DNA of 64,000 nt from assembly GCA_040743155.1 (NCBI GenBank), contig JBFLJU010000001.1, forward strand, positions 310,001-374,000, in the 5' to 3' direction. Made by a program: the position numbers and the translations under genes. Positions within the stretch are counted from its first letter, which is position 1; every line of letters starts with the position of its first letter. This stretch comes from Cycloclasticus sp. (GTDB lineage: Bacteria > Pseudomonadota > Gammaproteobacteria > Methylococcales > Cycloclasticaceae). The notes below the pieces were generated by a model. The model was not told where the DNA came from, searched no databases, and worked only from the letters and a program-made list of their open reading frames with translations. Below are positions 24,159 through 37,053 of the stretch, piece by piece.

Positions 24159-24322
24159 AAAATGAGTTGAGGTGCAGTGACCTTACTAAGGACATGGCGG
24201 CTAATTTCAGGTTGAATAATGGGTGCTGTAATAGCTACAGTTAGGATGCTCTTTGCATTGAAAACTTCCCTTTTACCTTTAAGTAGTGCCTTTTGAAGTT
24301 GTATTTACCTATAATACAAAGC

Positions 24323-24667
24323 ATGGAAGCCTTATCATTTTTCAAATGTTTGTCTGATCAAACTCGTTTAACCTGTCTTATGCTCATTCAGCAAGAAGGG
24401 GAGTTGTGTGTCTGTGAATTAATGGAAGCGTTGCAGGAAAGTCAGCCTAAAATTTCTAGGCACCTTGCACAACTTAGACGGTTTGATTTGCTGTCTGATA
24501 GGCGTCAGGGTCAATGGGTTTTTTATAGTATTAATCCGTCATTACCTGCGTGGGCCAAAGACATTTTAAAAACAACCTCACGATCCAATGCGGCGTTTAT
24601 TGAAAAGGGTCTTAATAATTTATCTTTGATGCGTTCACGCCCTGAGCGTGAGCGTATTTGTTGTTAA
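24323..24667 (+). CDS. arsR: ArsR-family arsenic-responsive repressor
   Basis: This small winged-helix metalloregulator has 114 residues. The recognition helix region SQPKISRHLAQLRRFDLL is preceded by the arsenite-sensing ELCVCEL segment with two Cys. Where the E. coli protein has a third Cys (ELCVCDLC), this one has Met, leaving a C-x-C pair plus a C-terminal Cys-Cys at the very end. The ATG at 24323 matches the E. coli N-terminus; a TTG ten codons earlier is the only longer choice. A GAPDH and an ArsJ transporter follow, so it very probably represses them in the absence of arsenic. Confidence 0.92.
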   Translation: MEALSFFKCLSDQTRLTCLMLIQQEGELCVCELMEALQESQPKISRHLAQLRRFDLLSDRRQGQWVFYSINPSLPAWAKDILKTTSRSNAAFIEKGLNNLSLMRSRPERERICC

Positions 24668-24727
24668 CACCTTAACTTAGTTATTCCACTTAGATATTCG
24701 ATTTTTAATCGTATTGAATTAGTAAAC

Positions 24728-24743
24728 ATATGAAATTTCATAT
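24728..24743. promoter_or_regulatory. Candidate ArsR operator palindrome
   Basis: The 16 bases ATATGAAATTTCATAT are a perfect palindrome between arsR and the GAPDH gene. A TATAAT (-10-like) sits at 24747-24752 right after it, and a further CATATG follows, so bound repressor would block polymerase. Assigning it to ArsR is inference from position. Confidence 0.55.
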
Positions 24744-24802
24744 ATGTATAATTCCATATGTGATTTATTGTTGAATAGTAACGGTTGATAAAGGGAGTTC
24801 GT

Positions 24803-25819
24803 ATGACTATAAAAGTAGGCGTTAATGGGTTTGGCCGAATGGGCCGTTTGTCCTTTAGAGCAGGATTTGGCTCTGATGAAATAGAGTTTATTCGTATAAA
24901 CGATCCTGCGGGTAACGCTGAAACTTTAGCGCACCTTCTAAATTTTGATTCTGTACACGGCAGGTGGGCTCACGAGGCTAGCCATTCAGATGATTGCATT
25001 TACATTGGCGATAAAGTTATCAAGACGAGCCAAAACCTGCTGATCGATGAAACGGATTGGTCGGATTGTGACGTCGTTATTGAAGCATCTGGCAAAATGA
25101 AGACAAAAGCCTTGTTGCAGCCTTATCTTGATCAGGGAGTTAAGCGTGTTGTGGTGACCGCGCCGGTGAAGGAAGACGGCGTATTAAATGTTGTTTTAGG
25201 GGTCAATGAAGAGCTTTATGATAAGGAGCAGCACCGTATCGTTACTGCGGCTTCTTGTACTACAAATTGCATCGCGCCGGTTGTTAAGGTCATCCATGAG
25301 AACCTTAAAATTGTGCATGGTTCGATAACAACCATTCACGATGTCACCAATACACAAACTATACTAGATGCGCCTCACAAGGACTTAAGGCGGGCTCGAG
25401 CGTGTGGAATGAGTCTCATTCCAACGTCAACAGGCTCTGCAACGGCTATTACTCACATATTCCCAGAGTTAAAAGGTAAGTTGAACGGGCACGCAGTACG
25501 GGTCCCTTTAGCAAATGCATCGCTGACAGATTGTGTATTCGAGGTGGCTAAAAAAACAACGGCTGATGAAGTGAATCAACTGCTGAAAGTTGCGGCCGAT
25601 AATGAATTGAGCGGGATTTTAGGTTACGAAGAACGCCCCTTGGTATCAATTGACTATAAAACAGATCCACGCTCAAGCATTGTTGATGCCTTGTCTACAA
25701 TGGTTGTGAATGGCACGCAGGTGAAAATATACGCTTGGTACGATAACGAGTGGGGGTATGCTAACCGTACGATTGAGTTGGTCAACATGGTGGGTGAACT
25801 GGATAAGCCTAATCATTAA
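24803..25819 (+). CDS. ArsJ-associated glyceraldehyde-3-phosphate dehydrogenase
   Basis: In arsenate resistance modules this enzyme uses arsenate in place of phosphate to make 1-arseno-3-phosphoglycerate, which ArsJ exports. The 338 residues contain the Rossmann GFGRMGRL at about 9-16, the catalytic Cys in AASCTTNC and the [11 protein letters not shown] segment with the catalytic His region. The ATG at 24803 is chosen because AAGGGAG lies five bases before it; an in-frame earlier start lacks a ribosome site. It is separate in sequence and length from the second GAPDH at 60838-62286. The arsJ ATG follows one base after the stop. Confidence 0.93.
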
Positions 25820-25820
25820 T

Positions 25821-27059
25821 ATGTACATGCTGTCGAAACTTCCCAAGAGTATTCAGCAATACTTGATTATTACCGGTAATTATTGGGTATTTACACTGAC
25901 CGATGGTGCGTTACGTATGTTGGTCGTGTTGCATTTTCATGGGTTGGGCTATACGCCACTTCAAATAGCGATGCTGTTCATATTTTACGAGTTGTTTGGC
26001 ATTATCACGAATCTTTTAGGTGGCTGGCTAGGGACGGTAGTCGGCTTAAACACCACGATGAACATTGGTTTAGCTTTGCAAGTTATTGCTCTGTCAATGT
26101 TGTTGGTTCCGGCTGACATGTTGAGTGTTTTTTGGGTGATGATGGCGCAAGCGGTATCTGGTGTTGCGAAGGACCTTAATAAGATGAGTGCTAAAAGTGC
26201 CATTAAATTATTAGTGCCTAGCGGTGCCGATAATAAACTTTATAAGTGGGTGGCGTTGCTGACGGGGTCAAAAAACACGCTTAAAGGTGTGGGTTTTTTT
26301 CTGGGTGGAGTACTTCTTAGTCAATTTGGTTTTCACGATGGCATTTTGTCAATGGTTTGCCTGCTGTTAATTGTGTGGGTCGTCAGTATTTTTTCGTTAC
26401 AAAGTGAAATGGGCAAAGTGACGAGTAAACCCAAGTTTAAGCAGCTTTTTTCAAAACGCCCCGCCATTAACTGCCTATCCAGTGCGCGATTGTTTTTATT
26501 TGCGGCTAGAGATGTTTGGTTTGTTGTGGCGTTGCCGGTGTATTTAACGAGTCAACTTGGTTGGGATTATTCACATGTTGGTGGAGTACTTGCTTTATGG
26601 GTGATTGGATATGGTGTTGTTCAATCGCTCGCCCCAACACTATCGGGCCATCGAAAGGCTGAATCGCAAGATGGTTACCGTTTGTTTAAATGGGCTGTTA
26701 CTCTGTCAGCCGTACCGGCGCTGATGGCAGTGGCCCTGTATTCTGACGTTCAAGAAGGCGCTGTATTGTTAGCAGGGCTAGTGGTGTTTGGTGTGTTGTT
26801 TGCGATTAACTCGTCATTGCATAGTTATTTGATAGTAAGTTATGCCCACAGGGATGCTGTGTCACTAGACGTTGGTTTTTATTACATGGCAAATGCAGCC
26901 GGTAGATTGCTAGGGACTGTCTTGTCGGGCTGGTTATATCAAAACTATAATTTTGAAATATGTTTATGGGTATCGGCGCTATTTATTTTTATGTCAGCCA
27001 TCATCGCAAAAGCTTTGCCAGACAAGTCTACGAGTGTACCGGTACCATTAAGTGCCTAA
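25821..27059 (+). CDS. arsJ: Organoarsenical efflux MFS transporter ArsJ
   Basis: ArsJ exports the unstable 1-arseno-3-phosphoglycerate, which then breaks down outside to arsenate. The 412-residue protein has about 11 or 12 helices and the family-typical start NYWVFTLTDGALRMLVVLHFH, then FYELFGIITNLLGGWLG and SKNTLKGVGFFLGG. The start is ATG 25821 (a second in-frame ATG is at 25827), just after the GAPDH stop. A longer frame overlaps the GAPDH and is rejected. The arsR-GAPDH-arsJ order is a recognised arsenate resistance arrangement. Confidence 0.93.
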   Translation: MYMLSKLPKSIQQYLIITGNYWVFTLTDGALRMLVVLHFHGLGYTPLQIAMLFIFYELFGIITNLLGGWLGTVVGLNTTMNIGLALQVIALSMLLVPADMLSVFWVMMAQAVSGVAKDLNKMSAKSAIKLLVPSGADNKLYKWVALLTGSKNTLKGVGFFLGGVLLSQFGFHDGILSMVCLLLIVWVVSIFSLQSEMGKVTSKPKFKQLFSKRPAINCLSSARLFLFAARDVWFVVALPVYLTSQLGWDYSHVGGVLALWVIGYGVVQSLAPTLSGHRKAESQDGYRLFKWAVTLSAVPALMAVALYSDVQEGAVLLAGLVVFGVLFAINSSLHSYLIVSYAHRDAVSLDVGFYYMANAAGRLLGTVLSGWLYQNYNFEICLWVSALFIFMSAIIAKALPDKSTSVPVPLSA

Positions 27060-27310: not shown

Positions 27311-28315
27311 TTATAGTGCGAACGAAAGCCCAGCGACAATTCGAGTGTCTACATCTGTCTGAATGCCTTTTTGGTTTTCAATGATCGGCACACCGATAGA
27401 AATAAAGCCGCCAAAACCACCAGCAGATACTTTAATCCCTGGCGATAAGTAAACGGTTGTGCCACCAGAGTTCTCTTCTATGTGACCAGACACCTTGTTT
27501 TCACGGCGTGTTTCACCATTAGCTTCAAGTGAAATGTCCCACTTAATTTCATTAGACTTGTGTGTGTGATGATGTCCATGGCCGGCGTGGTCATGACTTG
27601 CTAATCGGTAAGTTAGCGCAACATTGTAAGACAGTGCATCACCAACTTCTGTGTGTTGTGAGCCTTCAGTTGTTTTGTTATAAAGAATATTGGCGTGGTA
27701 ACCAACACGGCCGTTTGATTGACTAATGGCGGCGCCCAATAAGTAGTCCCAAGAACCGGTTCCTGATTGAAATTCAGCTTCAAAACGTTCTCCATGATCA
27801 TCTTTATCGTGTGTTTCGCCAGTTGGTGCTTTCACGCCAAATAGAATAGAGGCGTCTAATTGATCAGTTTTAAAAAAACGATAATTGCCCATCAATAAAA
27901 TGTCACCAAAGCCAGATGAATCACCGTGTGAATGAGCTTCACCAACGCCTTCTTCTTCCTCCTCGCTTTCACGAATGTTTTTTCTTTCTATATAAGGAAG
28001 GCGCGCGCTAATGGTTAGGTCTTCAGTTAATCCGTAAGCGGCAGATAATGATGTGCTTCTAATTTCATCAACACTGTGCACACCTTCTTCACCAATTGCG
28101 CCAAAATTCTCAAGCTCTCCTGTGGTGAATCGGTCGTTATTAATAATTTCGGTCCTAAGGCCAAATGCTAAGGCCCCCTTGGGCGCAGTTGTGCTGGAAA
28201 TTGTATTGATTGGACCTGCTGACTCTAACCCGAATGCTACGGTTGGGTGGTCCGCAACAGCAACGCTGCTTATGCTGATGAGTGCAATAGGAAGTATTCT
28301 GAGTAGGTGTTTCAT
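27311..28315 (-). CDS. His-rich predicted outer-membrane beta-barrel protein
   Basis: The 334-residue protein has a signal peptide (1-21, VAVA-DHP) and then alternating strands consistent with a small outer-membrane barrel. It ends RIVAGLSFAL, with a terminal Leu instead of Phe. It resembles generic 'transporter' or MetA-pathway phenol-degradation outer-membrane proteins, though the family assignment is loose. Two loops stand out: an acidic run with EEEEE and HSHGD at 118-131, and a His cluster HDHAGHGHHHTH at 241-252, which could bind Cu, Zn or Ni. It is divergent from the copper monooxygenase subunit C gene, so a copper role is plausible. Confidence 0.7.
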   Translation of the reverse strand: MKHLLRILPIALISISSVAVADHPTVAFGLESAGPINTISSTTAPKGALAFGLRTEIINNDRFTTGELENFGAIGEEGVHSVDEIRSTSLSAAYGLTEDLTISARLPYIERKNIRESEEEEEGVGEAHSHGDSSGFGDILLMGNYRFFKTDQLDASILFGVKAPTGETHDKDDHGERFEAEFQSGTGSWDYLLGAAISQSNGRVGYHANILYNKTTEGSQHTEVGDALSYNVALTYRLASHDHAGHGHHHTHKSNEIKWDISLEANGETRRENKVSGHIEENSGGTTVYLSPGIKVSAGGFGGFISIGVPIIENQKGIQTDVDTRIVAGLSFAL

Positions 28316-28366
28316 TCTGTATTATGGTTTCTAGTTATATTGAGATGTTATTTTATGACATATCGT

Positions 28367-28407
28367 AATACCCATACCTGCGACAAATTGTCGCAGGTAT
28401 GGGTATT
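28367..28407. repeat. Perfect inverted repeat, 20-base arms, one-base centre
   Basis: The arm at 28367-28386 is the exact reverse complement of 28388-28407, with a single A (28387) between them. No T-run follows on either side, and it lies between divergent starts, so a terminator is unlikely. It could be a dimeric regulator's operator, a cruciform-forming site or a mobile-repeat remnant. I did not see a second copy in the window. Confidence 0.9.
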
Positions 28408-28730
28408 GGGTTGTTTGTCTGGCAATGACTGAGCTTAATCGGAGTAAAAATATCGTGTCATTAAATCAAGGTGCGCAATATTTTCAGTGAATTATTGTCG
28501 ACACAGCTGATCTGGACAGTGGCACGAATGTGCTTGTTGTAGACTAGTGACGGCATTATTAGAATGAGGCAAGACGGTTAATGGCCAATACGGAAGATAG
28601 GTAGGATGCCTATAAGCATGTGATTAGGCTGTATTTCATTTTTACAGGCGAAAATAGACGAATATATTGAACTATATAATAGAACAAATGACTAATCGGT
28701 ACGCTCAGTGTTTTGTGCAATGAGTAGAAC

Positions 28731-28828: not shown

Positions 28829-29605
28829 ATGAGTACACCTTCAGTAGAAATGGGTGGTGATGTCTCTAAAGGCCTAATTGGCGGAAAGAGAATTGCTATC
28901 ATTTTCTTTTCAGTTTTAGCAGTCATGATCACTTGGCGAATTTACCAGCAGTTATTTGCTTGGGATAAAGGCATGGATTCGTTTGAGCCAGAATTCCAAA
29001 TTTATTGGATGAACCTTTTGTACGCACAGTGGATTGCTGAATTTACAATAGCGGCGGTTCTTTGGGGTTACTTGCTTAAAACACGTGATAAAAACGTATT
29101 TAACATCACTCCAAAAGAAGAGTTAAAACGGTACTTCACATTATTGGCTTGGTTGTTTTGCTATGTTTGGATTGTGTACTGGGCTGCTAGCTTCTTTGCA
29201 GAACAAGACGCATCATGGCATCAAGTCACTGTGCGTGATACTGACTTCACTCCGAGTCATATAGTGTTGTTTTACGGCACGATGCCTTGTTACATTCTAG
29301 CGGGTGTGGGTGCATTCTTATATGCTCGTACGCGTTTGCCTCAGTTTGCAGAAAGAATCTCTATTCCTTTCGTTATTGCAGTGGTTGGGCCTTTCATGAT
29401 TCTTCCAAATGTTGGTTTGAATGAATGGGGTCATACCTTCTGGTTTATGGAAGAGTTATTCTCAGCCTCTTTACATTGGGGTTTTGTTGTCCTAGGTTGG
29501 ACGGCACTAGCATTAGGCGGGTTATTGATTCAAATCGTATTGCGTTTTATTCAATTGACTAAACTTGATGATGAAGTGTTGGTTACTGAAGACATGAATG
29601 ACTAA
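28829..29605 (+). CDS. Particulate copper monooxygenase subunit C (PmoC/AmoC/HmoC)
   Basis: This is the membrane subunit that carries the essential CuC/CuD copper region of the monooxygenase. It has 258 residues and about six helices. It follows the Methylococcus PmoC sequence closely as I recall it. The CuC ligands are present as D127, H131 (EQDASWHQ) and H144 (DTDFTPSH), and the CuD ligands as N198, H202 (LNEWGHTFWF) and H216. All six are conserved, so the site should be functional. The enzyme inserts one O2 atom into methane, ammonia or short hydrocarbons; this sequence does not decide which. AGAGGA lies seven bases upstream. A terminator follows. Confidence 0.95.
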   Translation: MSTPSVEMGGDVSKGLIGGKRIAIIFFSVLAVMITWRIYQQLFAWDKGMDSFEPEFQIYWMNLLYAQWIAEFTIAAVLWGYLLKTRDKNVFNITPKEELKRYFTLLAWLFCYVWIVYWAASFFAEQDASWHQVTVRDTDFTPSHIVLFYGTMPCYILAGVGAFLYARTRLPQFAERISIPFVIAVVGPFMILPNVGLNEWGHTFWFMEELFSASLHWGFVVLGWTALALGGLLIQIVLRFIQLTKLDDEVLVTEDMND

Positions 29606-29952: not shown

Positions 29953-30696
29953 ATGAGTGCAGTACAATCTGCTATTACCACTGCTGAGCAGCAGCACAGA
30001 ATATATAAAGCTTTTGATTTGATAGTCATTCCAATTGTTACTTTAGTTATAATTGGAGCATTCCATATCCACTTTATGTTAACAGCTGGAGATTGGGATT
30101 TTTGGATTGATTGGAAAGATAGGCGTTGGTGGGTAACGGTTACACCTATTACGCTTATTTTCTTTCCCGCAGCACTTCATTACTTACTATGGACTAACTT
30201 TAGATTGCCTATTGGGGCGACATTAAGTTGCGCTGGTTTGTTAGTTGGTGAATGGATGAATAGGGTGTTTAACTTTGTTGGTTGGGCATATTTCCCACTT
30301 AACATGGTTGTACCAGCTGAAATCATTCCGATGGCGCTTATACTGGATGCGATACTAATTATTAGTAGAAGTTTGACAGTAACAGGGATTATAGGATCAA
30401 TGGTATGGGGCATTATTTTTTACCCAGCAAACTGGGCATTGATCGCGCCTTTCCATGTGCCTATTGAATACAACGGCACTATGATGTCAGTAGCCGATTT
30501 GATTGGTTATAACTATGTAAGAACAGGTACTCCAGAATATATCCGTATTATCGAAGAAGGTACGCTACGTACTTTCGGTGAAGACGTCACGCCCGTATCA
30601 GCTTTCTTTGCTGGCTTTATCTCGGTGTTTGCGTACTTTACTTGGATTGGTTTTGGCAAAGTCCTATCTAGTACTAAATGGGTGAAACGTCTGTAG
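29953..30696 (+). CDS. Particulate copper monooxygenase subunit A (PmoA/AmoA/HmoA)
   Basis: This is the membrane subunit widely used as a marker gene for copper monooxygenases, 247 residues with about six or seven helices. The diagnostic GDWDFW (46-51) is followed by DWKDRRWWVTVTPI. Later segments GEWMNRVFNF, HVPIEYNGTMMS and YNYVRTGTPEYIR also match the gammaproteobacterial PmoA pattern I recall. It looks closer to gammaproteobacterial PmoA/EmoA-like proteins than to betaproteobacterial AmoA, but a tree is required to place it. AGGAGG at 29942-29947 fixes the start. Subunit B follows 92 bases later. Confidence 0.95.
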   Translation: MSAVQSAITTAEQQHRIYKAFDLIVIPIVTLVIIGAFHIHFMLTAGDWDFWIDWKDRRWWVTVTPITLIFFPAALHYLLWTNFRLPIGATLSCAGLLVGEWMNRVFNFVGWAYFPLNMVVPAEIIPMALILDAILIISRSLTVTGIIGSMVWGIIFYPANWALIAPFHVPIEYNGTMMSVADLIGYNYVRTGTPEYIRIIEEGTLRTFGEDVTPVSAFFAGFISVFAYFTWIGFGKVLSSTKWVKRL

Positions 30697-30788
30697 AATT
30701 TAAGCTAATTAATGTAAGTGGTAACACTAACGTTAATGCTTAAATTTAGGTTCATTACATAAATATAATTAAAAGATTGAGGAAGATT

Positions 30789-32024
30789 ATGTTAAATATT
30801 AAAAAAACAATTGCTGTGCTAATAGCAATCGCGTCAGGCTTTATCGCCTTGTATGCGGCCCCTGCGCTGGCACATGGTGAAAAGTCACAGGCAGCTTATT
30901 TGAGAATGCGTACCTTGTTATGGTATGACATAGAGGTATCTACAACGAAGCTGAAAGTGAACGAAGAAATGACAATGACGGGCAAGTTTTATTGGTTCTA
31001 TGATTGGCCAGCAAATATTGCAAGACCTGAGTTGGCGTTCTTAAATATTGGGATTCCAGGGCCTGTATTCGTTAGAAAGGCGTCCTATATTAATGGCGTG
31101 AGTGGAACTAACTCTACACGTTTTGAAGTTGGCGAAACATATGAATTTAAAGTCATCTTGAGAGCACGTCGTGCAGCTAGGGTTCATATGCATGCGTTGA
31201 TGAACGTTTCTGAGGCGGGTCCGTTAATTGGACCAGGTCGCTGGGTTGAAGTAACAGGTGATATGGCTGACTTTACAAACGAAGTAACGACATTAACGGG
31301 TGAAACTATTGATCTTGAAACTTACGGTTTGGCAAATGCCATTAAATGGCACGTATTTTGGGGCGTGATTGCTGCAGCTTGGTTGTTATATTGGATTTTC
31401 CAAGGACCGATCTTAATTCCACGCTATAAAACAGTGAAAATCTTAGGTGATGACGCTGATGATATGGTCACGACATTTCAACGTACGTTAGGCCTTGTGT
31501 TGTTGATTGGTACGATGGGCGTTGTTACTTGGAGTTATTATAATGCGCACTCGCAATACCCAGTAACCATTCCATTACAAAGTGGGCAAATTACTATACC
31601 TGCGTTACCAGATGCTGCTCGCGGTGTTAATGCTGAAATGGTTGATGCTAAATACCGTGTTCCTGGTCGAGCATTGGAATATACGCTTAAAGTAACCAAT
31701 AACACGAATTCAGCAATCAAAATTGGCGAATTTACATCAGCTAATATTAGATGGATGAATCCTGAGGTTTCAACGGCAGAGCCTGCTGATAGTCATGACC
31801 CCGTGGCTGTTAATGGTCTGAAGTATGAAGGCGGTGCGGTAATGCCAGGTGAAACGAAACTTCTTAAAGTAACGTGTACAGATGCGGCTTGGGAGACATA
31901 TCGTTTAGCTAAACTGATTTACGATCCAGATAGTCGTTTCGGTGGTCTAGTATTCTTCTTTGACGAAGAAGGAAACCGTTCAGTAGTTGCTATTGGTGGA
32001 CCATTACTTCCTGTGTTTATCTAG
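30789..32024 (+). CDS. Particulate copper monooxygenase subunit B (PmoB/AmoB/HmoB)
   Basis: This subunit has two periplasmic cupredoxin-like domains joined by two membrane helices. The 411-residue precursor has a signal peptide ending ALA-HGEKSQ, so the mature protein starts with His29. CuB ligands H29, H133 and H135 (RVHMHALMN) are conserved. The His at Methylococcus positions 48 and 72 are replaced, as I align them, by L44 and Y68. The C-terminal end (YDPDSRFGGLVFFFDEEGNR) is typical. ATG 30789 is chosen: GAGGAAG is three bases upstream, and it gives the family's N-terminus. A TTG at 30777 is rejected. Confidence 0.94.
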   Translation: MLNIKKTIAVLIAIASGFIALYAAPALAHGEKSQAAYLRMRTLLWYDIEVSTTKLKVNEEMTMTGKFYWFYDWPANIARPELAFLNIGIPGPVFVRKASYINGVSGTNSTRFEVGETYEFKVILRARRAARVHMHALMNVSEAGPLIGPGRWVEVTGDMADFTNEVTTLTGETIDLETYGLANAIKWHVFWGVIAAAWLLYWIFQGPILIPRYKTVKILGDDADDMVTTFQRTLGLVLLIGTMGVVTWSYYNAHSQYPVTIPLQSGQITIPALPDAARGVNAEMVDAKYRVPGRALEYTLKVTNNTNSAIKIGEFTSANIRWMNPEVSTAEPADSHDPVAVNGLKYEGGAVMPGETKLLKVTCTDAAWETYRLAKLIYDPDSRFGGLVFFFDEEGNRSVVAIGGPLLPVFI

Positions 32025-32045
32025 AGGCAAGTGATTTAAGTTAGG

Positions 32046-32074
32046 AAAAAGCCCCGTGTATCGGGGCTTTTTTT
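32046..32074 (+). terminator. Terminator after subunit B
   Basis: AAAAAGCCCCG (32046-32056) pairs with CGGGGCTTTTT (32062-32072) around a five-base loop, with a T-run to 32074. It separates subunits AB from the downstream copper-protein operon. Confidence 0.9.
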
Positions 32075-32153
32075 GTTAATGCTTATTAGTTCAGAACTAA
32101 ATAACATATAATGTGTCATAAGAATTTTAAAAGGTATAACGAGGAGAAGATTA

Positions 32154-32750
32154 ATGTTTAGAGGTATCAATGCGTTAGTATTAGTTTTAATGAGTACACT
32201 GGCATGGGGACATGGTGGTGTTATGAATGAAGGTAATGAATGTAAGTTGCGTGTCGGTCCCTACGTGATGAATTTCTCTGGATACCAACCAGAAAATAAT
32301 GTTTCCAAACAGTTTTGTGATGATATGCCTACAATAGGTAAATCAATCATTGTTTTAGACTTTATCGATAATAAGTTGCGGGATATGACGGTTAACTTTA
32401 GGGTTATTAAGTCTGACGCTGCAGCCTTGGGTAATGAAAAAGACGGTGTGGTTGATGATGCTGAATTAGCCCAAATACCATTCTTTGAAATACCAGCTAA
32501 GCGTTACCCATCTGGAACAATGACTATAACTCAGAATTTTATAGAGAAAGGACATTTTGTCGGTTATGTTGTAGTTGAAGGTGAAAATGAGAAGTTTATA
32601 TCTAGATTTCCTTTTTCAGTTGGCTATCCAAAACAGGGTATTCCTGCAGCATTAAGAGTGCCGATTGCGGTGTTCTTAGTGGTAGTAATCATTATGATTT
32701 GGTTTGCACGTAGAAAGCCGGTGGTTTTGAATGAGAAAAAAGAAGATTAA
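32154..32750 (+). CDS. Periplasmic membrane-anchored protein of the copper monooxygenase locus
   Basis: This 198-residue protein has a signal peptide (1-19). If cleaved at AWG-HGG, the mature protein begins His-Gly-Gly, as in subunit B, which could bind copper through its N-terminus. C30 and C55 (NECKLRV, KQFCDDMP) may form a disulfide. A single helix at about 166-185 with a basic stop (ARRK) anchors the C-terminus. I recall similar HG...YQP...FC-type proteins next to ammonia monooxygenase genes (orf5/AmoD), but this is from memory. It starts a five-gene operon with AGGAG-like sites; multicopper oxidase follows 12 bases later. Confidence 0.65.
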   Translation: MFRGINALVLVLMSTLAWGHGGVMNEGNECKLRVGPYVMNFSGYQPENNVSKQFCDDMPTIGKSIIVLDFIDNKLRDMTVNFRVIKSDAAALGNEKDGVVDDAELAQIPFFEIPAKRYPSGTMTITQNFIEKGHFVGYVVVEGENEKFISRFPFSVGYPKQGIPAALRVPIAVFLVVVIIMIWFARRKPVVLNEKKED

Positions 32751-32762
32751 CTATCGTCAGTT

Positions 32763-34478
32763 ATGAAAATGAGAAGATTCTCAATTATTGGATTAATAAT
32801 AAGCGCAATAGTACTGAGTGTTATTGCACTTTTTCTTTATGACCCTTATTTACTGTATTCGAGATTCTTTGAATATACAGGGGTGCCAACATATCAAGCA
32901 CCTCCGAATTCAAGCCCTAAGCCAGATATTGGGCAAGTAACTGTTTGCGACGAGCAGTATCCTGAATGGCGTAAAAGTTACAAAATCGGTGGAGTTGATA
33001 TACAAGCTTCAGATGCATGTAATCCAGATAATCCATTTGAAGTGGCTGCATTTGTCAGAGGTACAAATAATGTCATTATGCCGGTGTTAATGAAAACACT
33101 GTTATCTGATGATGCAGTCGTCAAGACTAATGACATTGATGGTGATGGTGACCCTGATGACATTGTTATTCGTATCGAGGTGGCCGAGCTTAATGGGCGT
33201 TCACCAGATGAATTAGAGTTTGTCCCTGGTTTTGAAATAGCTCCAGGTATTAGACCGGGCGCTTGGGTGTTCGCACCAAAAAGTCGTGGAATGTCTACAG
33301 TTAATCGCGTGGATTTAACGGCTAATCATCTGCTGCGTTTGCCTTCAGCACCTATTCGTGTGGAAGCAGGTGATAATGTCACTTTAATATTAGAAAACAC
33401 ACATTATTTCCCTCATACGATTCATTTGCACGGGGTAGACCATAGCTATGAAAATAACGATGGTGTCCCTCAGACGAGTGAAAAAATGACCATGCCGGGC
33501 GAGCAACATATATACAAAATCAAACCTCGTCACGCCGGTACGATGATGTATCACTGCCATGTTCAAGTCCAAGTCCACCTTATGATGGGTTTACAGGGCT
33601 TATTTATCGTTGAGGAAAACAAGCCGAATAATTGGGTGCAAACATTCAACGTTGGGGCTGGCAAGGTAAGAAAACCGTCTGTCGGAGTGCTAGAGGATTA
33701 TGCCCAAGAGTATGATTTGCATTATCAAGCCATTGATACAGAGCTAAATAATCTGATTCAGACATCAAATGACCCTCGTCAATTGGCGAAGAGAATGAAC
33801 CGTTTATATGATATTACAGACGGTACGGACGATTACTTCATGCTCAATGGTCGCTCCTTCCCTTATACATTAAGGGAATCGCTCATTACGGTTGATCCGG
33901 ATCAACATACAAAATTACGTGTTTTAAATGGTACGCCAGATACTTTGTCGCTACACACACACGGGCACAAGGCGACAATTACTGCGTACGATGGTGTGGA
34001 TGTAAATCCGTTAAACCAGATAACACGCGATGTTTATGCGCTGTCGGCTGCTCAACGCGTAGATTTGGATTTATATACGAAAGACGACGGACTTCACAGC
34101 TATGGTGAGGGGATTTGGCTTTTTCATGATCATGCTGAAAGAGCCATTACAAGTAATGGGATTGCACCTGGTGGTAATGTCTCTTCAATCGTCTATCGAA
34201 AGTATTTAAATAAACACGCGTTACCAAACGGGCAAGGTGAAGATGTAAGCGCTTACTTCAGCCCAGACTACTATGCAGGAGACATTCCGTCGTGGACCCA
34301 AGCTGATGCTTTTGGCTTCTTTGATGATGCTGGTGGCAGAAATGTTGAGTCGTATAAAGACGTAATACTCTTTATCGTACTAGGCTTATTATTAGGCGTT
34401 TTATTTTTACTGTTTAATGCGCTGTATAGTTTTTTTCATGATATTTCCATTAAGTTAAAAGACGGGAGCTCATCATGA
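32763..34478 (+). CDS. Membrane-anchored multicopper oxidase
   Basis: This multicopper oxidase has 571 residues. An N-terminal helix (7-26) and a C-terminal helix (about 540-560) would hold it at the periplasmic face. Copper motifs in order: HTIHLHG (218-224), HCH with a second His five residues on (264-272), HTHGH (398-402), and FHDH (454-457). The HCHxxxxxH spacing differs from classic laccases and resembles two-domain laccase / nitrite-reductase relatives. A Ca-binding-like run DIDGDGDPDD lies at 124-133. The substrate is unknown; oxidation of Cu(I) or electron delivery to O2 are options. The stop overlaps the next start by four bases. Confidence 0.85.
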   Translation: MKMRRFSIIGLIISAIVLSVIALFLYDPYLLYSRFFEYTGVPTYQAPPNSSPKPDIGQVTVCDEQYPEWRKSYKIGGVDIQASDACNPDNPFEVAAFVRGTNNVIMPVLMKTLLSDDAVVKTNDIDGDGDPDDIVIRIEVAELNGRSPDELEFVPGFEIAPGIRPGAWVFAPKSRGMSTVNRVDLTANHLLRLPSAPIRVEAGDNVTLILENTHYFPHTIHLHGVDHSYENNDGVPQTSEKMTMPGEQHIYKIKPRHAGTMMYHCHVQVQVHLMMGLQGLFIVEENKPNNWVQTFNVGAGKVRKPSVGVLEDYAQEYDLHYQAIDTELNNLIQTSNDPRQLAKRMNRLYDITDGTDDYFMLNGRSFPYTLRESLITVDPDQHTKLRVLNGTPDTLSLHTHGHKATITAYDGVDVNPLNQITRDVYALSAAQRVDLDLYTKDDGLHSYGEGIWLFHDHAERAITSNGIAPGGNVSSIVYRKYLNKHALPNGQGEDVSAYFSPDYYAGDIPSWTQADAFGFFDDAGGRNVESYKDVILFIVLGLLLGVLFLLFNALYSFFHDISIKLKDGSSS

Positions 34479-35101
34479 GGCTAACTCTCATAGCGTTAAT
34501 AATCATGTTGTTCAGTATGAGTGCATCAGCTGCAATGCGTATGGGAGATTGGGGCATGGTGATGAATGAGAACCATGAAGAGCTTCCTCAAGGGTGTGAA
34601 AGTGTTGCAGGCGAAGAAGATATTACAATCAAGGCGGGACGGGAGTATGCTAAAGAGTTTCCAGGGACTATTTTTGGTTATAGTCAGCACGAATTTAGCC
34701 TACCTAAGTGCACACGCATAAACGTAACGTTTATCAATGAAGACGACATTCGTCACCAGTTTATGGTTCATGGCCTGCCAACATATTTACACCCTCAGGG
34801 TATGTTCCATATGGAGCTATACGGTAGAGGAGAAACAACAGGTACCTTCATTACACCTAAGACAGAGCAAACATACTTAGCCCATTGCGATGTTGCTCAG
34901 CATATGGAAAAAGGCATGAAAGCACAGGTTCTTGTTGGAGGAGGAAGTGGAAACTTGCCGTCTATTCCAGGTATTTCTGGGCAATTAAATAGAGACTATT
35001 ATGAACTCGATACGGGCGTACAAAATCTAGTATTAATATTTGTTTTATTACTGTTAGGTTTTTCAAGTTGTATGTTTTTCTTTATTTGGAATAAAAAGTA
35101 A
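34475..35101 (+). CDS. Membrane-anchored blue-copper (cupredoxin-like) protein
   Basis: The 208-residue precursor has a signal peptide (1-19), and the mature end AMRMGDWGMVM is Met-rich. A cupredoxin-type core has H94 (DDIRHQFMVHG), C138 (AHCDVAQHMEKGM), H143 and M148 as a plausible type 1 copper set. A C-terminal anchor helix lies at about 183-205. It may shuttle electrons to the multicopper oxidase whose stop it overlaps (ATGA), or hold copper for the monooxygenase. PmoD-type proteins share the signal/cupredoxin/tail-anchor layout, but I cannot show orthology. No oxidase-type second copper site is visible. Confidence 0.8.
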   Translation: MRLTLIALIIMLFSMSASAAMRMGDWGMVMNENHEELPQGCESVAGEEDITIKAGREYAKEFPGTIFGYSQHEFSLPKCTRINVTFINEDDIRHQFMVHGLPTYLHPQGMFHMELYGRGETTGTFITPKTEQTYLAHCDVAQHMEKGMKAQVLVGGGSGNLPSIPGISGQLNRDYYELDTGVQNLVLIFVLLLLGFSSCMFFFIWNKK

Positions 35102-35112
35102 GCGATCCTTTT

Positions 35113-35547
35113 ATGTTTGATGAGCTGGTTGAGTCATATGGTGTATTGGGCTTGTTCGTTAGTGCTTTTGTGTCATCTACACTTGCACCAGGTGGTTCTG
35201 AAGCCGTACTAGCCTACCTTCTGTTGAACGGGGAGCATGTGTCGATTTATTTGGTTATCGTGGCTACCATTGGTAATACATTAGGCGCGTTAACCACTTT
35301 TTACTTAGGTCATATTGCGTCAGCAAAATATCCACCCAAAAAAATTAACCCTCAACACTTTTACAAAGCCAATGTGCTGATTCAACGATACGGTAGTATC
35401 TCGTTGTTAATGAGTTGGTTGCCTGTGTTGGGTGATGTTCTTTGCTTGGTCGCAGGCTGGTTACGACTTAATTTTTTAAAAGCCTTGTTTTTTATTACGC
35501 TGGGTAAATTTGCTCGGTATTTCTTAATTTCGATAATGCTTAACTAA
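35113..35547 (+). CDS. YqaA-family (DedA-like) membrane protein
   Basis: This 144-residue protein has about four helices. Features of the YqaA / SNARE-associated group are VSSTLAPGGSEAVLAYLL near 20-38, IGNTLGALTTFYLGH near 58-72, and SWLPVLGDVLCLVAGWLR near 99-116. The biochemical role is not established; DedA relatives have been linked to lipid scrambling. It starts 11 bases after the cupredoxin stop and so belongs to the same transcript, an unusual companion for copper enzymes. Confidence 0.85.
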   Translation: MFDELVESYGVLGLFVSAFVSSTLAPGGSEAVLAYLLLNGEHVSIYLVIVATIGNTLGALTTFYLGHIASAKYPPKKINPQHFYKANVLIQRYGSISLLMSWLPVLGDVLCLVAGWLRLNFLKALFFITLGKFARYFLISIMLN

Positions 35548-35553
35548 TTCAGA

Positions 35554-36456
35554 ATGTCTAAAAGTATCATGCGCATAGAAAAAGATATTGATCATCGTAC
35601 TAATGTACGTGATGATTTGAGAAGCGATATAGCGGACTATTATGACCAAAGCTATTGGGATTACAGAACCTCTTGGTTAAACAGTAAGAATTTAGCTATT
35701 CATTATGGTTATTGGGCTGATGATACACAGTCACATAGTGATTCTTTATTAAAGATGAATGAGGTGTTAGCTGGCCAATTAGACCTAAAGCCTGGCGATC
35801 ACGTTCTTGACGCGGGTTGCGGGATTGGTGGTAGCTCTATCTGGTTAGCTGAAAACTTTGGTGTGAAAGTGACAGGCATTACTATTTCACCGACACAAAT
35901 TGACCAAGCTGTTAAGAATGCAAAGAAGCGCGGGGTAGACCATCTAGTTGACTTTAAGCTGGAGGACTATACGCAGACGTCCTTTGATGATGAAAAATTT
36001 GATCACGTTTGGGGTTTGGAGAGTGTTTGTTATGCGCTTAAAAAGTCAGACTTTGTTAAAGAGGCGCATCGTGTGTTAAAAAAAGGCGGCTGTTTTGCAG
36101 TCGCTGACGGCTTTGCTAACAAGCGCGATGTAACGCTCAAAGAATGGAAACATGTGCTAAAAGTCTTGAATGGCTGGGCTATGCCGAATATGTCTACGCC
36201 AAGTGAGTTCGAGGCTTTTATGAAGGGCAGTGGCTTTACAGATATATATTATCGAGATATTACAAAAAATACGTTGCCGTCATCTAAACGACTGTATTAC
36301 ACGGCGTTGTTAACGTACCCAATGGAAAAGGTTATGAGTGTTTTGCGTTTAAGGTCTTCGGTACAAAGCGGAAATTTTGATGCTTGTTTCGGCCAATATC
36401 ATGTTTTGCATGACGGGATTGGCTGCTATGGTTTGTTTTCTGCAAAGAAAGCGTAA
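35554..36456 (+). CDS. SAM-dependent methyltransferase
   Basis: This class I methyltransferase has 300 residues. Motif I reads VLDAGCGIGGSS (84-95), followed by VTGITISPTQID and a post-motif with WGLESVCYALKKSDFVKEAHRVLKKGG. It resembles the gamma-tocopherol / sarcosine / sterol-type small-molecule methyltransferases, but the acceptor is unknown. The start is six bases after the YqaA stop, so it closes the copper-locus operon. Methylation of a quinone-like or lipid acceptor is possible, but nothing here proves it. Confidence 0.85.
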   Translation: MSKSIMRIEKDIDHRTNVRDDLRSDIADYYDQSYWDYRTSWLNSKNLAIHYGYWADDTQSHSDSLLKMNEVLAGQLDLKPGDHVLDAGCGIGGSSIWLAENFGVKVTGITISPTQIDQAVKNAKKRGVDHLVDFKLEDYTQTSFDDEKFDHVWGLESVCYALKKSDFVKEAHRVLKKGGCFAVADGFANKRDVTLKEWKHVLKVLNGWAMPNMSTPSEFEAFMKGSGFTDIYYRDITKNTLPSSKRLYYTALLTYPMEKVMSVLRLRSSVQSGNFDACFGQYHVLHDGIGCYGLFSAKKA

Positions 36457-36477
36457 GCATAGCTACACTTACGCTTT
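36448..36477. terminator. Candidate bidirectional terminator after the copper operon
   Basis: Ten-base arms at 36448-36457 and 36468-36477 pair perfectly around a ten-base loop; AAA precedes and TTT follows. It overlaps the methyltransferase stop and faces the convergent lipoprotein gene. The T-run is short. Confidence 0.55.
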
Positions 36478-36492
36478 ATTATTGAGTGACGA

Positions 36493-37053
36493 TTAAGGTC
36501 TAAAAAGGGTGATATCTTTTTGACGTTTGTTCCATTCTTTATAAGCTAACAAGCTTAACGATGTGTCCTGATAGGTCATCACAAGCTGAAGCTTTTCTGG
36601 AGTCAGTGATCGTTCACACTCGATGGTGACTTCACGTTGGTTGTCTTCACGAATTTTCCATTTATTGCCCTCTTCAGTTACTTTAAGCGCAGACGTATCG
36701 CCAAGAGAGGCCAGTGTTTCTTTAATTAATTCTTGACGTTGTAGCATACAGCTTTCTTTTGCTACTTCTCGGGCGCCCTTTGTTTTAATGCCGTAAATAG
36801 TGTGAGTGTTTGGTGTAATTGAATAAGTGTAAATAACAAAGTGAGGGTGTGTTGGTTGCGGTGTAAAGTCGAAAGCTTTATTGTCAATAATATAACCCTC
36901 AGGAAGACCTCGGCCTTGCTCACCAATATTTACACCAAATGCTCCCTGTATTTTAAATACCTTGTTTGGGTCCGATGTGGCAGTTTGCTCGCCGCAGGCT
37001 GATAGTAGTAAGGTGAGTGAGGCGATGGCCAGTAAGTTTTTTAAAATATTCAT
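36493..37053 (-). CDS. Predicted lipoprotein of unknown function
   Basis: This 186-residue protein has a lipoprotein signal (lipobox LSAC, lipidated C20). The rest is soluble, with a beta-rich middle and an internal Cys pair (CMLQ, CERS). I recognise no family. The copper operon is convergent with it and it stands alone, with about 280 bases of untranslated spacer on its other side. Confidence 0.65.
   Translation of the reverse strand: MNILKNLLAIASLTLLLSACGEQTATSDPNKVFKIQGAFGVNIGEQGRGLPEGYIIDNKAFDFTPQPTHPHFVIYTYSITPNTHTIYGIKTKGAREVAKESCMLQRQELIKETLASLGDTSALKVTEEGNKWKIREDNQREVTIECERSLTPEKLQLVMTYQDTSLSLLAYKEWNKRQKDITLFRP

Follow-up and report, generated by a model that had tools for sequence, protein, structure and literature searches.

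A five-gene cluster behind a copper monooxygenase

Our subject is a cluster of five open reading frames at positions 32154-36456 of a 64,000-nucleotide window from the genome of a Cycloclasticus species (GenBank contig JBFLJU010000001.1, positions 310,001 to 374,000; coordinates below are those of this window unless another locus is named). The genome, G000 in our sample, is a single contig of 2.56 Mb that is 99.9% complete, and it carries three copper monooxygenases (CuMMOs). Upstream of the cluster lies a complete forward-strand pmoC-pmoA-pmoB set, taken to be that of an alkane monooxygenase and encoding pmoC/amoC-type subunit C (28829-29605; PF04896, 1e-104), pmoA/amoA-type subunit A (29953-30696; PF02461, 2e-107) and pmoB/amoB-type subunit B (30786-32024; PF04744, 1e-143). 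The five reading frames follow on the same strand with spacings of 12, -4, 11 and 6 bases, exactly as the initial annotation of the window had given them. They encode a PmoD homologue (32154-32750), a membrane-anchored type-C two-domain multicopper oxidase (32763-34478; 3g5w, 4e-28), a tail-anchored type-1 cupredoxin (34475-35101), a short YqaA-like membrane protein of the VTT/DedA family (35113-35547; PF09335, 4e-12) and a class I S-adenosylmethionine-dependent small-molecule methyltransferase (35554-36456; PF08241, 2e-20). Pfam has matches for the multicopper oxidase, cupredoxin, VTT (YqaA/DedA) and methyltransferase families in the cluster; the methyltransferase is distant from all named families, with its best NCBIfam matches far under cut-off. 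The first three proteins had been taken to be exported and anchored, and this view stands: each starts with an export/anchor segment and ends with a helix, as read from the sequence and, for the helices of the oxidase and the cupredoxin, as predicted.

The cluster is probably an operon of its own, separate from pmoCAB, because pmoB and pmoD are separated by a conserved terminator and a promoter-like element. The former is a terminator-like hairpin on the forward strand (32044-32074; -19.1 kcal/mol, z -4.86) followed by a T run, and it is kept in all seven of the Cycloclasticus loci examined that have the cluster directly after pmoB. The latter, GAACT-N10-TATAAT-N2-GTC (32094-32117, forward strand), is clear in most of those seven loci and diverged in one (L078), and it is also retained upstream of pmoD at a locus that is unlinked to pmoCAB (L081). 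A scan for consensus promoters gave fewer matches than in shuffled sequences, so it is the conservation of the element that carries its putative role as a promoter. The same two signals lead us to reject the five genes as a mere tail of the pmoCAB transcript, although some read-through is possible, and the position of the cluster behind the monooxygenase, correctly noted at the outset, is thus positional only. Past the last gene a weak hairpin (36448-36477, forward strand; z -1.98) is a possible end of the operon, and an Rfam scan of the whole window gave no match. As a separate observation, GAACT and GTC are set 16 bases apart, a spacing like that of an extracytoplasmic function sigma promoter overlapping the TATAAT box, which could indicate a dedicated stress or copper regulon.

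Three predicted membrane-anchored copper proteins

The product of the first gene, initially described as an "HG-protein", receives no name from Pfam, NCBIfam or PHROGs. A profile built from ten homologues matches the crystallised PmoD of Methylocystis (PDB 6CPD) with E=2.1e-19 over profile positions 29-150, and two cysteines that are invariant in the ten homologues, C30 and C55, align with those of 6CPD. All the homologues have a signal peptide and a single C-terminal transmembrane helix, as read from their sequences, and the periplasmic domain is cupredoxin-like. On sequence grounds the HG-protein is PmoD, and the cluster has three copper proteins rather than the two first counted, the oxidase and the cupredoxin, both of which hold. 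The motif CKLRVGPYVMNF...C places it in the Cx8MxnC class of PmoD; the CuA-forming motif Cx7MxHxnC is not found in it, nor is a CuA ligand set. A representative Cx8MxnC PmoD binds copper and forms no CuA, and genes of this class often have a multicopper oxidase gene nearby (Fisher et al. 2018, PMC6189053). The same work found that deletion of pmoD, a different PmoD, abolishes copper-dependent growth on methane, and it recorded PmoD in no genomes other than those with a CuMMO (PMC6189053). In M. capsulatus the gene MCA2130 is a PmoD gene that adjoins a multicopper oxidase gene and is down-regulated without copper (PMC6688271). The main text of a Methylococcus transcriptome paper (PMC4831470) mentions neither MCA2130 nor multicopper oxidases, and hence this copper response is taken from PMC6688271. 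Given a PmoD structure, a knockout phenotype and published PmoD genes beside multicopper oxidases (PMC6189053, PMC6688271), the earlier statement that no characterised system with this set was known is not supported as far as its parts are concerned. Further PmoD homologues were noted at L070 (6698-11443; G000:C1, about 493.7-498.4 kb) and at L068: a third CuMMO of this genome has two distinct ones behind it, the second sharing 60-69% identity with the cluster's own PmoD and having Ile or Leu in place of Met39.

The second gene product is, by its sequence and its predicted structure, a type-C two-domain multicopper oxidase. Its type-1 ligands H218, C265, H272 and M275 align with those of the Nitrosomonas europaea blue copper oxidase (3g5w), are invariant in 33 sequences and are found in domain 1 only; domain 2 has HDH (D456) in place of HCH and hence no type-1 site. 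The eight histidines of the trinuclear site (H221, H223, H264, H266, H398, H400, H455 and H457) are likewise invariant in the 33 relatives. The structural model (predicted local distance difference test score 72) superposes on 3g5w with VIA Z 24.9 and a root-mean-square deviation of 3.5 over 283 aligned positions, and on the metagenomic two-domain laccase 2zwn with the same VIA Z of 24.9. An additional N-terminal domain contains an invariant acidic stretch, DxDGDGDPD (124-132), which looks calcium-like from its sequence, and helices are predicted at both ends of the protein. In one Cycloclasticus genome (G009, loci L059/L075) PmoD and the oxidase both seem frameshifted and their neighbours look intact, which may be an assembly error or decay.

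The third gene product reads as a type-1 cupredoxin that is anchored in the membrane and carries a methionine motif. Its type-1 set (H94, C138, H143 and M148) is invariant in 37 sequences, and the membrane anchor is present in nearly all relatives. The predicted structure has fold matches to auracyanin and to domains of multicopper oxidases; the cupredoxin profile has no match among PDB sequences, so the kinship is at the level of the fold. Of 92 cupredoxins, 82 have a conserved MxM...GMxM motif near the N-terminus, and tails rich in His and Met are seen in some, with up to 27 of these residues per 70. At 62 of 78 loci the stop codon of the oxidase gene overlaps the cupredoxin start codon, as ATGA or GTGA.

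Gene neighbourhoods and distribution

Every complete Cycloclasticus locus has the identical order pmoD-oxidase-cupredoxin-VTT-methyltransferase, which argues that the cluster is not a product of chance. It lies directly behind pmoCAB in seven Cycloclasticus genomes and elsewhere in four (G007, G009, G014 and G017), and in two more (G008 and G013) the cluster loci run into contig ends. Three of the four (G007, G009 and G014) show a CuMMO of another type only, and in each of them pmoB is followed by a separate, divergent PmoD; in G017 PmoD remains beside the oxidase and not beside pmoCAB. Since the cluster is kept where an adjacent CuMMO is absent or located elsewhere, the module would act in trans, unbound to any one CuMMO operon.

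Outside Cycloclasticus the constant unit is the oxidase gene followed by the cupredoxin gene on the same strand. YqaA seldom recurs there and the methyltransferase is never alongside the pair in the loci compared, which leads us to reject these two as general CuMMO partners; they had been thought constant partners and are so inside Cycloclasticus only. Relatives come from Methylobacter, Methylomonas, Crenothrix, Methyloglobulus and Binatota. The genes stand in several arrangements. The order pmoCAB-PmoD-oxidase-cupredoxin is found in Cycloclasticus and in G025, and the order oxidase-cupredoxin-pmoCAB in several Methylobacter-like metagenome-assembled genomes from lakes (L102, L124, L131, L133 and L148). 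On a Binatota contig (L146) pmoCAB precedes the pair, and two loci (L161 and L166) have PmoD-cupredoxin-VTT without the oxidase. The monooxygenases linked to the pair are spread over several separate PmoB clades, and thus the linkage recurs. A different setting is seen in the gammaproteobacterial genome G057, where a cytochrome c oxidase operon (COX2, COX1, COX3, COX3, COX4) immediately precedes PmoD-oxidase-cupredoxin (locus L155, G057:C1:1437000-1451000). Neither pmoB nor pmoC was found in this genome, which is a single contig and 99% complete. It is either a counter-example to the restriction of PmoD to CuMMO genomes (PMC6189053) or a case of CuMMO loss.

The initial annotation had taken a lack of linkage to CuMMO genes in relatives as counting against its reading, and on this point the outcome is mixed: at least 4 of 13 Cycloclasticus genomes no longer have the cluster next to pmoCAB, whereas co-occurrence at the genome level is perfect. 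Among 18 genomes of the Cycloclasticus family, counting oxidase relatives that were full-length or cut by a contig end, these are present in 13/13 of those that have pmoB and 0/5 of those that lack it (Fisher p=1e-4), so that the proposed tie to the CuMMO is borne out. In 370 Gammaproteobacteria a strong cupredoxin match and pmoB occur together in 11, are discordant in one genome each way and are both missing from 357 (p=4e-19). A sample of 100 Methylococcales genomes, comprising methane oxidizers and Cycloclasticus, has the cupredoxin in 97, including 89 of the 90 with pmoB, and two of the three genomes that lack it are pmoB-negative Cycloclasticus. No pmoB was found in the other eight genomes with the cupredoxin, all of them drafts in 60 to 510 contigs, from which repeated pmo operons may have been lost in binning.

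The surroundings of the cluster contain several other features. Downstream, a small lipoprotein gene on the reverse strand (36493-37053) is convergent to the cluster and is conserved, often tandem-duplicated, at the same position in Cycloclasticus. Adjoining pmoC is a reverse-strand gene (27311-28315) for an outer-membrane-like protein of the Phenol_MetA_deg family with His-rich stretches (HDHAGHGHHHTH), possibly a metal-related channel, and a near-perfect inverted repeat of 20 pairs between this gene and pmoC (28366-28408) is probably a terminator. Further upstream, consecutive forward-strand genes for an ArsR-type regulator, GAPDH and an MFS transporter (24293-27059) resemble the GAPDH-ArsJ arsenate resistance set. 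A search of the genome itself for archaeal AmoA gave no match, but its control was empty too and the result is uninformative.

A proposed role in copper oxidation and supply

The cluster may be a periplasmic module, tethered to the inner membrane, that oxidises Cu(I) and supplies copper to membrane copper enzymes, above all CuMMOs, and to this reading we would give an even chance. Copper would be bound at the membrane surface by the cupredoxin, through its methionine-rich N-terminus, and by the Cx8MxnC PmoD, and electrons from Cu(I) would enter a type-1 site, in the cupredoxin, the oxidase or both. From there they would reach the trinuclear site of the type-C oxidase, where oxygen would be reduced to water. 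The oxidised copper would be held near the CuMMO, which could protect against Cu(I) and aid the loading or reloading of the enzyme, with YqaA and the methyltransferase as additions particular to Cycloclasticus. We infer copper as the substrate, the direction of electron flow and physical contact with the CuMMO. That Cu(I) is oxidised and copper supplied locally is suggested by the copper binding reported for PmoD, the methionine motifs, the His/Met-rich tails and the co-anchored, presumably oxygen-reducing oxidase, and membrane copper enzymes are the common denominator of these settings, CuMMO and, in G057, cytochrome oxidase. The reading agrees with the pmoD deletion phenotype (PMC6189053) and with the copper response of MCA2130 (PMC6688271), and of the functions first offered, copper loading or copper oxidation fits best. 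Some observations weigh against it. PmoD does not adjoin the oxidase-cupredoxin pair in most of the Methylococcales loci searched. Two CuMMO genomes, G206 and, from another class of the phylum, G533, have no cupredoxin, which is therefore not obligatory for a CuMMO. The oxidase also scores far below the cut-offs of the CueO/CopA cuprous-oxidase families (TIGR01480, 43.6 against 478.95 bits; NF008205, 28.1 against 525).

The main competing explanation, which we regard as unlikely, is an electron relay in which the tail-anchored cupredoxin shuttles electrons between the quinol/cytochrome pool and the CuMMO, while the oxidase would serve as a sink for oxygen, either regulatory or for overflow. 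The intact type-1 site of every cupredoxin, its anchor in nearly all of them, a fold common to electron carriers such as auracyanin as well as to multicopper oxidase domains and its near-universal presence in Methylococcales would all suit a carrier. However, an oxygen-reducing oxidase co-translated through the 4-base overlap would drain electrons from the CuMMO, the trio is present in G057 without any CuMMO, the cupredoxin is missing from some CuMMO genomes, and electron transfer needs neither the conserved methionine motif nor the His/Met tails.

Two further readings place the oxidase in other chemistry. That it is a laccase-like oxidase which acts on quinols, phenols or hydrocarbon products when alkanes are metabolised, has the cupredoxin for a redox partner and hands its product to the methyltransferase for modification, would be in line with 2zwn among the nearest solved structures and with the methyltransferase gene that ends the cluster. 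It is nevertheless quite improbable given the strict tie to copper enzymes, the lack of the methyltransferase in loci outside Cycloclasticus and the sharing of the pair by methane oxidizers, whose carbon products differ. Least probable, with only a slight chance in our estimation, is the handling of nitrite or nitric oxide in the manner of the nirK-cluster oxidase NcgA/BCO of Nitrosomonas. The closest structure is indeed the N. europaea blue copper oxidase, the fold is common to copper nitrite reductases and in G301 the pair adjoins norC/norB-like genes; but no nirK or nor genes lie beside the Cycloclasticus cluster, and the oxidase is far under the cut-off of the copper nitrite reductase family (TIGR02376, 36.6 against 296.3 bits).

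PmoD, type-C oxidases and the adjacency of PmoD and oxidase genes are already known (PMC6189053, PMC6688271). We found nothing in the literature searched, outside which most subscription journals lie, that describes the oxidase-cupredoxin pair as a near-universal CuMMO companion in Methylococcales, gives it an operon structure of its own or links it to a cytochrome oxidase operon. A bolder and rather doubtful reading is that the pair is the missing near-universal accessory of gammaproteobacterial CuMMOs, a membrane-bound copper-loading or reductant system needed to keep particulate methane monooxygenase (pMMO) active. If true, such a required accessory would help explain the activity loss of purified pMMO. 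CuMMOs are a globally important enzyme family, and the pair may bear on their copper and electron supply in the cell and on the lower activity of purified pMMO compared with that of whole cells. The prevalence of its cupredoxin in pmoB-bearing Methylococcales makes the pair a concrete candidate that is amenable to knockout. It would also mean that Cycloclasticus, a marine oil-spill responder, shares a copper accessory set with methane oxidizers.

Compared with known systems, the cluster combines familiar parts in a different way. With the Methylocystis PmoD/AmoD type (6CPD) its PmoD shares the signal peptide, the periplasmic cupredoxin-like domain, the two invariant cysteines, the C-terminal transmembrane helix and a CuMMO-bearing genome, but it has no Cx7MxHxnC ligand set for CuA and accompanies an oxidase operon with its own promoter-like element rather than pmoCAB. 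With the type-C oxidases 3g5w and 2zwn the oxidase shares two cupredoxin domains, a type-1 site in domain 1 only, the full set of trinuclear-site histidines and the fold (Z 24.9); it differs in the extra DxDGDGDPD domain, the anchors at both ends, the coupling of its gene to that of the cupredoxin by the 4-base overlap and its other gene neighbours. CueO and CopA (PcoA) have in common with it the proposed periplasmic oxidation of Cu(I) and a Met-rich copper-binding segment in the system, yet they are three-domain enzymes of another family, as the scores of 28-44 bits against cut-offs of 479-525 indicate. Finally, in the extended operons amoCABED-copCD and pmoCABD-copCD-PCuAC a CuMMO is likewise followed by PmoD and copper proteins, whereas the present cluster has the oxidase and the cupredoxin instead of copC, copD or PCuAC and is probably a separate transcription unit, the terminator and the promoter-like element arguing against co-transcription with pmoCAB.

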